A DNA stretch of 64,000 nucleotides from a virus. Where the stretch lies: positions 1 to 64,000 of the IMG/VR virus record IMGVR_UViG_3300048436_000037; one strand, written 5' to 3'. The position numbers and the translations under genes were made by a program. A model generated the notes under the pieces. It was given only the letters and a program-made list of their open reading frames with translations. It had not been told where the DNA came from and made no database searches. Positions within the stretch are counted from its first letter, which is position 1; each line of letters begins with the position of its first letter. Positions 8,797-64,000 of the stretch are shown piece by piece.

Positions 8797-8872
8797 TAGT
8801 CGTTGGTGGAATCGAACCACCTCACAAAGTAGAGCTCACGTAGTCAAAATGCAGAGTGAAACCGTTACGACT
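8797..8872 (-). tRNA. tRNA-like element of 76 nt with abnormal D and anticodon arms
   Basis: Leftward, AGTCGTA (8866-8872) pairs with AACGACT (8798-8804), 6 of 7 bases, and the T arm GGTGG-TTCGATT-CCACC is perfect. The total of 76 nt is exactly tRNA size. The middle does not form a normal D arm, and the best internal stem is TCAC/GTGA around a 16-nt loop, so no anticodon can be named; a TTTTGAC stretch recalls a Gln loop. It is a divergent or decayed tRNA. Confidence 0.45.
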
Positions 8873-8888
8873 TGTTACTCGGATAGTA

Positions 8889-9116
8889 CTATTTTTCTAG
8901 TACTTCTCGAGCGATCACTGGTACACTAGTTGAAGAAGTGTAAGACTTGTACTTGATGAAGCAAGCCATATTTTCTAGTTTAGACTTCATTACTTCATAC
9001 ACTTTATCGTGATTATAAGTAACTGTTTTACCATTTTTGAAGTTGACAGTGATTAGTTGGTTTTTACCAATTAGTGATTTTCTGATTACAAATCTTTTTG
9101 AAATTAAAGTTGACAT
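8889..9116 (-). CDS. hypothetical protein, paralogue A (75 aa)
   Basis: This protein and the one at 9439-9669 are clear tandem paralogues, sharing RKSLIGKNQ, FKNGK, YNHD, VYEVMK and YKSYTSSTS in the same order. The beta-rich, basic pattern gives no known family. Conservation is strongest in the first 30 residues and the YKSYTSSTS region, which are likely structural or binding parts. Each copy has its own bipartite promoter. The tRNA-like element lies just after this copy's stop. Confidence 0.8.
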   Translation of the reverse strand: MSTLISKRFVIRKSLIGKNQLITVNFKNGKTVTYNHDKVYEVMKSKLENMACFIKYKSYTSSTSVPVIAREVLEK

Positions 9117-9235: not shown

Positions 9236-9427
9236 AGTTTTATGCACTATCTCTTATAGTATAACACACTATTATAAGTAAAACTTATAGTTAAATATGG
9301 TGTAGAGTGGAGTCTAGTCTTCCGATCTTATTTCAGGATCAGGCCTGCAATGGAACACACTAAATGTAGTGTTACAAAAAGTGTGACATTAGCTTGTTAG
9401 ATTAATAGAGTAACAGGCTATTGTCAC
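9236..9427. ncRNA. hairpin-rich intergenic region between the paralogues
   Basis: No coding frame is seen in 9200-9438. Three separate inverted repeats are visible: AGTTTTA with TAAAACT enclosing CTTATAGT/ACTAT-TATAAG (9236-9285); ACACTA-AATG-TAGTGT (9357-9372); and a long stem GTGACA...TGTCAC (9383-9427) whose relative lies at 9947-9988. This may be a transcribed RNA, a terminator plus regulator, or part of a replication origin. Confidence 0.45.
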
Positions 9428-9438
9428 AGTTTAGTATA

Positions 9439-9669
9439 TTACTCAGTGATTATTAATTCACGAGTAATAACTGGCATCGATGTGCTACTTGTATATGATT
9501 TATACTTCGCCCAACAGTTCATTGTTTCTAACTTTGGTTTCATTACTTCATACACATCATCGTGATTATACTTAGCGACTTTACCATTTTTGAATGTTAC
9601 TTCAATGATTTGATTCTTTCCGATTAATGATTTGCGAACAACAAATCTTTTTGATTTTAATACTGACAT
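9439..9669 (-). CDS. hypothetical protein, paralogue B (76 aa)
   Basis: Tandem paralogue of the 75-aa protein at 8889-9116. Most residues are identical over the first 30, with VEVxFKNGK-type and YNHDDVYEVMK segments retained and a slightly different C-terminus (TRELIITE). It is the rightmost leftward gene of this arm and follows promoter-like copy 6. Function unknown; duplication suggests dosage or diversification of an early, host-directed product. Confidence 0.8.
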   Translation of the reverse strand: MSVLKSKRFVVRKSLIGKNQIIEVTFKNGKVAKYNHDDVYEVMKPKLETMNCWAKYKSYTSSTSMPVITRELIITE

Positions 9670-9717
9670 AGTTTTAATTTATTTAAGTTATTATTATTAT
9701 TTATTAGTTACATTATT

Positions 9718-9749
9718 ATTATCCAAAATGTAATGTGGTTTGTTTGTAA
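9718..9749 (-). promoter_or_regulatory. bipartite early promoter-like element, copy 6
   Basis: Leftward TTACAAACAAA starts at 9749 and TGGATAAT at 9725, 24 nt apart, 49 nt before paralogue B. It is the most upstream copy, at the edge of the switch region. Confidence 0.75.
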
Positions 9750-10045
9750 TAATATGTGAAATTAGCTGTTGAAATTGTAATGTAATATGTGAATGCATGG
9801 ATGAAAACAACATGATCACGCGTATATATGCAAACGTAAACGTAAAAACATGGGGGACCCGGTAAAATGAAAATGATTTTGAAATTATGTAACATAAGTG
9901 GAAAATAGTGGGTAACCCCATACTCCTATATATCTAACGAAAACTATGACATTAGCCTTATAGAGTATATAGTAAGGGGCTATTGTCACACTATTGTAAA
10001 AAACAGTGGTTTTGTGTGAGTATATACACTATAATAAAAGCAATT
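9750..10045. promoter_or_regulatory. divergent control region between leftward and rightward genes
   Basis: About 300 nt without a convincing gene. It contains short direct repeats (TAATATGTGAA twice, AACGTAAACGTAAA), G/C blocks GGGGGACCC and GGGTAACCCC, the stem-loop at 9947-9988, and a TATAAT at about 10029-10034 a short way before the first rightward ATG. The likely job is control of the rightward late block; a replication origin is an alternative. The leftward frame across 9697-9921 looks like chance. Confidence 0.5.
9947..9988 (+). promoter_or_regulatory. stem-loop related to the one at 9383-9427
   Basis: TGACA (9947-9951) pairs with TGTCA (9984-9988), followed inward by a T-T mismatch, TAGCC/GGCTA and CTTA/TAAG. 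The element at 9383-9427 has the same outer stem, the same T-T mismatch and TAGC/GCTA, but an inner TGTTA/TAACA. The paired change in the inner stem suggests that structure is selected. Confidence 0.55.
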
Positions 10046-10363
10046 ATGGCAAAACCAAAAAAGAAGGGAGGACCTAAGCAGCAGTTATCGCCTACAGGGC
10101 GTGCTAGAAAGGCTGCTAGAGATGTGTGTTATGCTAGAGGATGGGTTTGGAACAAAGAATCTGGTACATGCTCTGAATCTGGTAAAGGAATATCGACAAG
10201 TTCTTTACAAAGAAAGGAGAAAAAGGCAGAGAATCAAAGAATAGGGCAAAATAGTAGCACAGATCTGCACCATGTTGGTGGTGAATTAGGTAAAACCAAA
10301 AGAGTACCAGTTGGTAGCAACAGAGGAGACAGTGGAGATGGTACTAAAAACGACAGAAAATAA
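10046..10363 (+). CDS. small basic virion-region protein (105 aa)
   Basis: First gene of the rightward block. The start MAKPKKKGGPKQQLS is preferred over an ATG 21 codons earlier because it follows the TATAAT-containing leader and has a normal basic start. The Lys/Arg-rich chain carries a conserved-looking C-x11-C part (VCYARGWVWNKESGTC). Small basic cysteine-containing proteins of this type recur at 16806 and 52422 in this window and are common in structural regions of marine phages. Function unknown. Confidence 0.75.
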   Translation: MAKPKKKGGPKQQLSPTGRARKAARDVCYARGWVWNKESGTCSESGKGISTSSLQRKEKKAENQRIGQNSSTDLHHVGGELGKTKRVPVGSNRGDSGDGTKNDRK

Positions 10364-13484: not shown

Positions 13485-15038
13485 ATGGATGCAATAGTTA
13501 AGAATCTAAACTTCGGAGAGAAGGCTAGAAAAAATGTCTATGAAGGTATAGACAAGTTGACTAAAGCCGTTAGTTCTACACTAGGAGCTAGCGGTAAATG
13601 TGTGATGCTAGAAGATCATACAGGTAGACCCATTATAACAAAGGATGGTGTTACTGTAGCAGAGTCAGTTATATTAAGAGATCCAGTTGAAAATATGGGA
13701 GCTACACTTTTAAAGGAGGCAGCTCGTAAAACCGTAAAAGAAGCTGGAGATGGAACTACAACTGCCACTGTGCTAGCTCACGCTATATTAACAGAAGCTT
13801 ACAAAGTATTAGACAAGACAAATACAAGAAGCTTAAAAGAAGGTATTGATAAATCTGTAGAATCTGTTGTAGAGTATTTAAAAGAAAACTCTGTACAAGT
13901 TACAGATGACATGTTAGATCAAGTAGCTACAATATCTACCAATAACGACCCTGAACTTGGTAAAATAATTGGTGATGCTTTCAGGCTTGTTGATTTGACG
14001 GGTGTAGTAGTAATGGAACCTACCGAGGATAATGAAACTTCTGTAGAACTAGTTGAAGGTGTTGAGTACGACAAAGGACTTGTTAACTCTCATTTTGTCA
14101 CTAGTAAAACTAAAAGAGCAGCAGAGCTTGAAAACGCATTGGTATTAATAGTAGAATCACCAGTTGAGTCTATAAGAAAAATACAAAGTGTTTTAGAGTA
14201 TGTTATAAAGAATAATAAATCTTTATTGATAATAGCTGATTGTGAGCAGAGTGTTATTTCTGCTTTAGCTATGAATAAAGTTAAAGGTAATATAAAAGTA
14301 AATGTTATCAACGCGCCTACATATGGTGTTAGTAAAAAAGATACTTTAAACGACCTAGCCCTTCTTACAGGCGCTACGGTGATAAATGAGGATCTTGGAG
14401 ATGATATGGACCTTATACAACCAGAATATCTAGGAAGTTGCTTAAAAAGCATTACAACAGATCTAGAGACTATAATACAGGTTGAGGACAATAATCCTAA
14501 TGTAGAAAAGTTAATTCAAGATCTTAGAGATCAAATAGAAAATACAAAGAATCCTAACGAGGTAATAAGATTAGAAAGACGACTTGGTCGTATATCTGCA
14601 AAAGTTGCTATTGTTAAAGTTGGGGCAAATTCTGAAATAGAATTAAAAGAAAAACAAGATAGAGTTGAAGACGCTATCTGTGCTACTAAAGCCGCAATCA
14701 AGGAAGGTATTGTTTCAGGTGGTGGTATTGCACTTCTAAATGCCTCGAGTAAAATAAAGGCAAAAACAACTGGGGAAAAAGTTTTATTAAAAGCTATTAG
14801 AGCACCTTTTAAAACAATACTTAGTAATGCTGGTATAGAGAAGTACGATACTCCTAGCGTTGAAGGTGAAGGATTAAATGTGGTTACAGGAAATATGGTA
14901 AATATGATAGACTCAGGTATTATCGATCCTTTACTAGTAACTAAAAGCGCTTTAAGAAACGCGGCTTCTGTAGCATCAACAATAATATCTACTGATTGTG
15001 TAATTAATAACTTGAGGATTGATGATAGCAATAGGTAG
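13485..15038 (+). CDS. groEL: phage GroEL chaperonin (517 aa)
   Basis: An ATP-driven folding chamber subunit. Family features are in order: KDGVTVAE near residue 53, the ATP loop GDGTTTA near 88-94, [12 protein letters not shown] with the catalytic Asp of the equatorial domain, and [12 protein letters not shown] near the C-terminal third. The apical domain is divergent ([20 protein letters not shown]) and the usual GGM-rich tail is missing; the chain ends LRIDDSNR. At 517 aa it is slightly shorter than bacterial GroEL (about 548). It overlaps the GroES gene by 20 nt. It probably folds large virion proteins such as the capsid or fibres. The host origin is ancient, to judge from divergence; codon use matches its phage neighbours. 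Confidence 0.95.
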
Positions 15039-15282
15039 GAATTTAATAATAAATAAACATAAAGTAGGTAGCACCAAAACAAAAGGTGGTTTGTTACTTG
15101 CTGAATCTCAAAGAGAGGATATACGATATATACAGGCTGACGTTGTAAGTGTTGGTAATGAGGTTGAAGGTATTAAAGCTGGAGATCAAATATACTATGA
15201 TAAACACGCTGGTCACGGTATAGAGCATAAGGGTGAGAAATATCACATTATAAGATTTCAAGATGTAGTTGTTGTTTTATGA
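15019..15282 (+). CDS. groES: phage GroES co-chaperonin (87 aa)
   Basis: The lid of the GroEL chamber. Visible features are the start [18 protein letters not shown], a mobile-loop-like TKGGLLLAES, then VKxGD-type EGIKAGDQIYYDKHAGH and the closing EKYHIIRFQDVVVVL. Length is close to bacterial GroES (about 97). It follows groEL, the reverse of the usual bacterial groES-groEL order. An ATG one codon later is also possible. Its 20-nt overlap with groEL suggests coupled synthesis and a dedicated pair. Confidence 0.92.
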   Translation: MMIAIGRNLIINKHKVGSTKTKGGLLLAESQREDIRYIQADVVSVGNEVEGIKAGDQIYYDKHAGHGIEHKGEKYHIIRFQDVVVVL

Positions 15283-33324: not shown

Positions 33325-33345
33325 TTGATTCAACATATGTAATTC

Positions 33346-33379
33346 TTACCCTCGTTGAACTGACGGGGGTAATTATTAC
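33346..33379 (+). terminator. terminator hairpin after the capsid gene
   Basis: TTACCCTCGT (33346-33355) pairs with ACGGGGGTAA (33363-33372): 10 bp with one G-T pair and a 7-nt loop, followed by TTATTACTTTT. It fits an intrinsic terminator that raises capsid mRNA relative to downstream genes. Confidence 0.8.
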
Positions 33380-33408
33380 TTTTAAAAACTATTTAATTAT
33401 ATTATATT

Positions 33409-63223: not shown

Positions 63224-64000
63224 TTACAGAAAGTCAATCACTTGCGAGCTATCTACGTTAGCTATTAATTTATCTATAGCAGCCTTTTTTAGCTCAGATA
63301 TTCTCACATAATTACTAACTCCAGTTATGTTTAGCTTAACAGCTATTTCTTTAGCTGAATGTTTTTCACAGTCCATACCGTAACTCAATCTTATAACTTC
63401 GTATTCTGTATTGCTTAAGTACTGTTTCATTATACCCATCAAATAAGCATTCATAAGATCTATATTATAAGGAGTTGAGTTGTCTTCTATAGACTGAGCA
63501 AAACTCATTGTATTATCGTCATTTTTGTAAGTATTACTTTTACTTACTTGCTCATTATCTAAAGAAGTAAACATACTTGTTATAAAGATTTTACTTAAAT
63601 CTTCATTGTCTGGATTTTTACGTATTTCATTTAGCTTATGCTCTGGTATTCTCATACCTCCTTTGTTTATATCTATACGTCTACGTATTGCACCTTTAAT
63701 TCGTTTACTTAAAAATGACTTTAAAGTTTTTTCAACATCAGGAGATTGATCTATAACTAACCAGTCTATTTTGTTTACAGCTTTAACCAAAGCTTCATTA
63801 CCTATTTGTATTAAATCATTAATACTAAGTATTCCAGATGCTTGATCACTAGTTGAAAACTTTCTAGCTAGATTTTCTACCAAAGGCATAAACTTAATTA
63901 TAAGTTCATCTTTAGTGTACTCATCGTAAAACTTACCTTCAAGGTTAGCTATAGATGTTTTAACATCTGTCTTATATCTTACGTAATTTTGTACGTTATA
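63224..64000 (-). CDS. RNA polymerase sigma factor (5' end outside the window)
   Basis: Directs RNA polymerase to phage promoters. The frame stays open to the right edge, so the true start is outside; an internal Met at 63889 falls within sigma region 2 (LIIKFMPLVENLARKF reads through it), so it is not the start. Region 2 also has DLIQIGNEALVKAVNKID and KRIKGAIRRRIDIN. Region 4, near the end, has LSNTEYEVIRLSYGM, then SAKEIAVKLNIT with a helix-turn-helix and RISELKKAAIDKL. It may read the six bipartite elements of the left arm, but that is not shown. Confidence 0.88.
   Translation of the reverse strand, partial: YNVQNYVRYKTDVKTSIANLEGKFYDEYTKDELIIKFMPLVENLARKFSTSDQASGILSINDLIQIGNEALVKAVNKIDWLVIDQSPDVEKTLKSFLSKRIKGAIRRRIDINKGGMRIPEHKLNEIRKNPDNEDLSKIFITSMFTSLDNEQVSKSNTYKNDDNTMSFAQSIEDNSTPYNIDLMNAYLMGIMKQYLSNTEYEVIRLSYGMDCEKHSAKEIAVKLNITGVSNYVRISELKKAAIDKLIANVDSSQVIDFL

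Follow-up and report, generated by a model that had tools for sequence, protein, structure and literature searches.

Arrangement of the locus

The stretch of DNA analyzed here (the window; 64,000 nucleotides, positions 1 to 64,000 of IMG/VR record IMGVR_UViG_3300048436_000037) belongs to a podovirus-like phage, the terminase of which is 62% identical to that of MW202828 and 33–45% identical to those of Flavobacterium, Cellulophaga, Maribacter, and Tenacibaculum phages. The window also carries a phage-borne GroEL gene (13485–15038), followed by an 86-aa open reading frame (15022–15282) that resembles a GroES-type co-chaperonin; the annotation of MW202828 likewise includes GroEL and a 10-kD chaperonin.

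Two copies of a short element composed of inverted half-sites are located on the minus strand, at 9384–9426 (copy 1, 43 bp; model R1, E = 1.3e-16) and at 9947–9988 (copy 2, 42 bp; model R1, E = 1.6e-16), the latter in a divergent intergenic region. The position that they occupy, with the leftward early genes on one side and, on the other, the rightward (late) block, the first gene of which lies at 10046–10363 on the plus strand, is termed site A, and both window copies belong to it. In copy 1, the half bearing TTAC is 5′ on the minus strand and is directed at the leftward gene at 8889–9116 (minus), which encodes a 75-aa paralog of a conserved 76-aa early protein; in copy 2, the TTAC half is directed at the gene encoding the 76-aa protein itself (9439–9669, minus). 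The pattern TGACATTAGC-N-GGCTATTGTCA occurs in the window only at these two places, and it was found in none of 100 dinucleotide shuffles. Both copies lie within one tandem duplication of approximately 560 bp that includes the adjoining leftward 75/76-aa gene (repeat families D1, D2, D6, and D7), and they are therefore paralogs rather than independent occurrences. The site is positioned approximately 150–1200 bp upstream of the 76-aa gene in most relatives, and all 97 copies that lie no more than 1200 bp from the early gene point in the direction of transcription. The AlphaFold model of the 76-aa protein has a pLDDT of 92.5, and its fold has no PDB match below an E value of 1.

A conserved early-side motif, TTAGATATATAGG (9925–9937, minus), is located downstream of site A and may represent a promoter or the start of a leader. 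Its distance from site A is variable (mostly 12–18, range 5–40), and no fixed promoter spacing was found downstream of the site. On the late side, the motif TGTGAGTATATA (10016–10027, plus), the group form of which is TGTAAGTATATA, is a candidate divergent late promoter or leader; a motif resembling TGTAAGTATATA was identified on this side of site A in 30 of 49 relatives, compared with 4 of 49 in a reversed control.

Several other features were observed in the same region. The segment GTTANATATAnAGGGG...GCCCC is conserved after site A (L210–L288; window 9900–9937, minus) and is possibly a structured 5′ leader. Ahead of the early genes, a motif of the form GCCTGAY-TGAAAY-RTCGGAAGAGTAGACTCCGTCCTACG is present in the window (9299–9345, minus) and in L023, L222, L229, L231, and L219; its first stem shows compensatory changes (96.9% paired vs. 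91.1% in shuffled sequences) and it has no Rfam match, which makes it a candidate new leader RNA, the second hairpin of which is degenerate in the window copy. A tRNA-like stretch of 75 nt (8798–8872, minus), with the acceptor ends AGTCGT/ACGACT and a T-arm (GGTGGTTCGATTCCACC), was called by neither ARAGORN nor Rfam.

Occurrence of the element in related phages

A pattern search of IMG/VR identified more than 119 stretches, all 41–44 bp in length. The first set of 119 loci was selected by the element itself, and the conservation of the arms is thus given by construction in that set, which was therefore left out of the variation statistics. To obtain relatives without this bias, a 276-aa structural gene and the 76-aa early gene, rather than the element, served as queries; in the scan of these relatives for variants, the reversed control was almost empty up to four mismatches. 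The earlier note on this DNA had proposed a check for the element in related phages, and the relatives do have it: each of the first 37 records gave a match to model R1, with approximately one to six site places per record or genome (the R1 match counts exceed the number of places because the tables list both strands). All of these records are metagenomic and phylogenetically related, and permutation values overstate the evidence because related copies are not independent. The phages that carry the element are uncultivated flavobacterial phages (marine flavophages) and form a large group.

Just five matches to the site came from bacterial genome contigs, most of them MAG contigs, and a host repeat or REP-like element was rejected on this count. 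Searches of named phages by short-query blastn returned only partial, chance-level matches, and literature searches yielded no close description of the site. Within the reach of the tools used here, this real, group-wide regulatory DNA site has no earlier description.

Anatomy of the half-sites

The site consists of two inverted half-sites of approximately 17 bp, TGACANTAGCCYNTTAC, the ends of which are 41–44 bp, or about four helical turns, apart; the arms are best described as inverted DNA half-sites of the form TGACANTAGCCYNTTA. G2, A3, C4, and G9 are invariant in both halves, and T15, A16, and C17 are invariant in one half. In all 83 copies fetched through neighboring genes, C at position 17 (TTAC) is present in exactly one half, and the same is true of TTAC in 142 of 144 copies when those of a second location (site B, below) are included.

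A further difference between the halves concerns positions 5–7, where at least one pair is non-complementary in 142 of 142 oriented copies; position 6 is complementary between the halves in seven copies, compared with 56 expected. The base itself may change, as in L161 and L164, which have a near-identical loop and carry A-A and T-T, respectively, at the mismatch. The constraint for non-complementarity is real. It is conceivable, if on balance doubtful, that strict non-complementarity at positions 5–7, between bases approximately 30 bp apart, is a symmetry-breaking rule with the protein or an extruded DNA hairpin as its reader; if so, it would define a kind of phage operator whose conserved signal is imperfect symmetry rather than a particular base. 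In two degenerate copies at a third location (site C, below), L185 and L188 (CGACGATAGC...), a wobble at position 5 replaces the mismatch at position 6.

A double-stranded DNA site rather than an RNA stem-loop

The earlier note described two stem-loops with common outer arms and a T-T mismatch, one flanking the last leftward gene and the other just before the rightward block; both elements are present and are located relative to the gene blocks as claimed. Their inner stems were also said to differ in a compensating way, but the CTTA/TAAG of copy 2 pairs only in a shifted register with GG omitted, and in register the stem reads C-G, T.G, T.G, A.A. Copy 1 folds far better than expected by chance (z = −7.6), and copy 2 folds slightly better than its shuffles (a weak z of −2.0).

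Paired changes, which homologous sites were expected to reveal, are absent: neither the inner nor the outer pairs covary across 73 aligned relatives. In this alignment, hairpin pairing is 79.4% (79.6% in shuffled sequences) and hairpin covariation is 0.056 (0.061 in shuffled sequences), and in a set of 83 distinct copies, variation in one arm is independent of that in the other at the variable stem positions, position 6 excepted. A conserved RNA stem is rejected because the arms vary independently and because both pairing and covariation equal those of the shuffled sequences. The proposal of a protein-binding RNA or terminator is likewise unsupported, since the arms vary independently and pairs 10–13 are often broken; a structured RNA or intrinsic terminator was discarded as a candidate because base pairs are not kept through compensatory change. 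No Rfam family matched at the gathering threshold, and the weak matches were implausible and mostly to eukaryotic microRNA families. A mobile hairpin of the IS200/IS605 or REP type is also unsupported, given that a conserved folded stem and covariation are absent. Judged from sequence comparison, the element is a double-stranded DNA binding site of 42–43 bp and not an RNA structure. This case illustrates that RNA covariation that appears plausible from two copies can vanish once many unbiased copies are compared.

Sites at the HTH gene and the probable capsid gene

Site B is located just past the end of the window (64718–64759 of the record) and covers the ATG of a gene encoding a helix-turn-helix (HTH) regulator (64103–64723 of the record). 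A sigma-like gene lies downstream of the HTH gene (63224–64009 of the record), and its 3′ part falls within the window (63224–63889, minus). The site lies over the start codon in 79 of 79 HTH orthologs and has the opposite orientation in 77 of them. A single HTH gene was found in every one of the 33 site-bearing records examined (33/33), and sites are present in all 32 HTH-bearing records, of which seven have no detectable 76-aa gene; the sigma-like gene was present in the five site-bearing records tested (5/5). Six named relatives sharing the terminase have no full site, no sigma-like gene, and no full HTH gene, and one of them gives a weak, partial match of 64 residues to the HTH profile. 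Neither of the two genes considered for the switch matched anything among 50,697 named phage records.

The HTH protein comprises 206 aa and its AlphaFold model is confident (pLDDT 88). Its C-terminal HTH aligns with MntR-, TetR-, and sigma-type HTHs with Z values of 5–6, which are common; a whole-protein Foldseek search returned no match below an E value of 0.2, and the C-terminal HTH is the only part that aligns. The N-terminal part, which is helical with strands in the model, is possibly a winged helix.

Site C corresponds to the intergenic gap after a probable capsid gene, which is empty in the window (33325–33408, plus). Of 80 loci, 16 have a copy at this place and 64 have none, the two states differ by a clean insertion of 50 bp, and there is no target duplication. 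In the set that gave the 97 copies near the early gene, the capsid-locus copies point in the direction of transcription in 15 of 15 cases, and one site C lineage (the L015 class) is reversed relative to the downstream gene. Both site B and the site C of the L015 class run against the gene downstream, and hence no single rule of direction applies.

Proposed operator and alternative explanations

These sites are rather likely to be double-stranded DNA operators of a phage-encoded transcription regulator, most plausibly the 206-aa HTH protein, the binding of which we infer from the co-occurrence of its gene with the sites, from its predicted HTH, and from the occasional absence of the 76-aa gene. 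The site is probably an autoregulated early/late operator rather than a covarying RNA stem-loop; the earlier suggestion of a transcription switch thus stands in outline, given that sites separate the early block from the late one in many related phages and also overlap the start of the HTH gene, and fails as an RNA, its place being taken by a double-stranded DNA operator. Each half-site of approximately 17 bp would offer three contacts, GACA (positions 2–5), AGCC (8–11), and TTAC (14–17), which would suit two protomers, each having a pair of DNA-binding domains, and the halves would face each other across 41–44 bp, or approximately four helical turns. Binding at site B would be autoregulatory, in that the protein would obstruct the start region of its own gene; at site A, which is flanked by the late-strand motif and the early leader, binding would move transcription between the leftward (early) and rightward (late) blocks; and at site C, in some phages, it would modulate the gene that follows the capsid gene. 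That the two halves must differ, seen as a T-T mismatch when the site is read as a palindrome, would impose asymmetric binding, as in phi29 p4. The variable distance between site A and the early motif argues against this model, as it is loose for an activator.

The sigma-like protein is the main rival as binder, since its gene also co-occurs with the sites. The site might be a promoter for this factor, with a TTACT...TATA core read in the TTAC direction, as the adjacency of its gene to the HTH gene, its absence from the six named relatives, and the TTAC half running along transcription at sites A and mostly at site C would suggest. This explanation is unlikely: a 42-bp inverted repeat with GACA equally conserved at its two ends is not the form of a sigma promoter, each genome of 60–70 kb has only a few sites, and site B runs opposite to its gene in 77 of 79 cases. 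Somewhat less likely still is that the site acts as a folded single strand, either RNA or an extruded DNA hairpin, with the non-complementary position 6 as the recognition feature. The consistent mismatch at positions 5–7 (142/142) and the rarity of pairing at position 6 (seven vs. 56 expected) agree with such a role, as do the perfectly palindromic versions in IMG/VR, which are at chance level (two and one stretches, of 30–32 and 57 bp) against more than 119 mismatched stretches; however, the remaining variable pairs show independent changes and frequent breaks, and pairing and covariation equal those of shuffles.

There is a slim chance that the binder is the 76-aa early protein or a host factor. 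The 76-aa gene adjoins site A in most relatives, but it is undetected in 7 of 32 site-bearing records, which indicates that its product is not needed and makes it an unlikely binder; the near absence of the site from host genomes counts against a host factor, although one with few sites of its own would be compatible with it. The least probable explanation is a mobile hairpin cassette that inserts in intergenic gaps, with regulation as a secondary effect. The 50-bp presence/absence difference at site C (16 filled, 64 empty, and the window empty) and the variable copy number are in its favor, whereas sites A and B are conserved in position across the group, site C lacks a target duplication, bacterial genomes gave just five matches, and homologous exchange between phages accounts for site C. 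The HTH protein is therefore favored as the binder, because its gene and the sites co-occur, an HTH is predicted, and the 76-aa gene is sometimes absent. It would constitute a candidate master switch, together with its DNA sites, in abundant uncultivated flavobacterial phages in which no regulator has been tested; the short sites, the small two-domain regulator, and the clear rule that the halves differ at position 6 make the proposal testable with synthetic DNA.

Comparison with known systems

In autoregulated phage repressors of the lambda OR/OL type, an operator is located at divergent transcription and an operator acts on the regulator's own gene. The present sites would share this arrangement, with one at divergent transcription and one on the gene of the candidate regulator, and differ in half-site length and regulator family. 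The T4-type PeSL mobile regulatory cassettes, as they are mentioned in PMC4503421, resemble site C in being small intergenic palindromes that are present or absent between related phages; compared with that mention, the site described here has no conserved hairpin stem or terminator, has only putative promoters, and occupies the fixed loci A and B.

The proposed likeness to phi29 p4 concerns the way of working: p4 is a small phage early protein that switches transcription, and its sites, which lie between early (A2b/A2c) and late (A3) promoters, are inverted repeats of imperfect symmetry. An inverted-repeat double-stranded DNA site between early and late transcription units, which characterizes a switch operator of the phi29 p4 type, is likewise found here. 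The p4 consensus, CTTTTT-15 bp-AAAATG with one direct base contact, is different; the features proper to the present system are GACA/AGCC/TTAC half-sites over 41–44 bp and a candidate protein that has a predicted HTH and a start codon inside the site. Asymmetry between the two target halves is functionally required in phi29 p4 (PMC3100819), which is the closest precedent for the difference between the halves of the present site.
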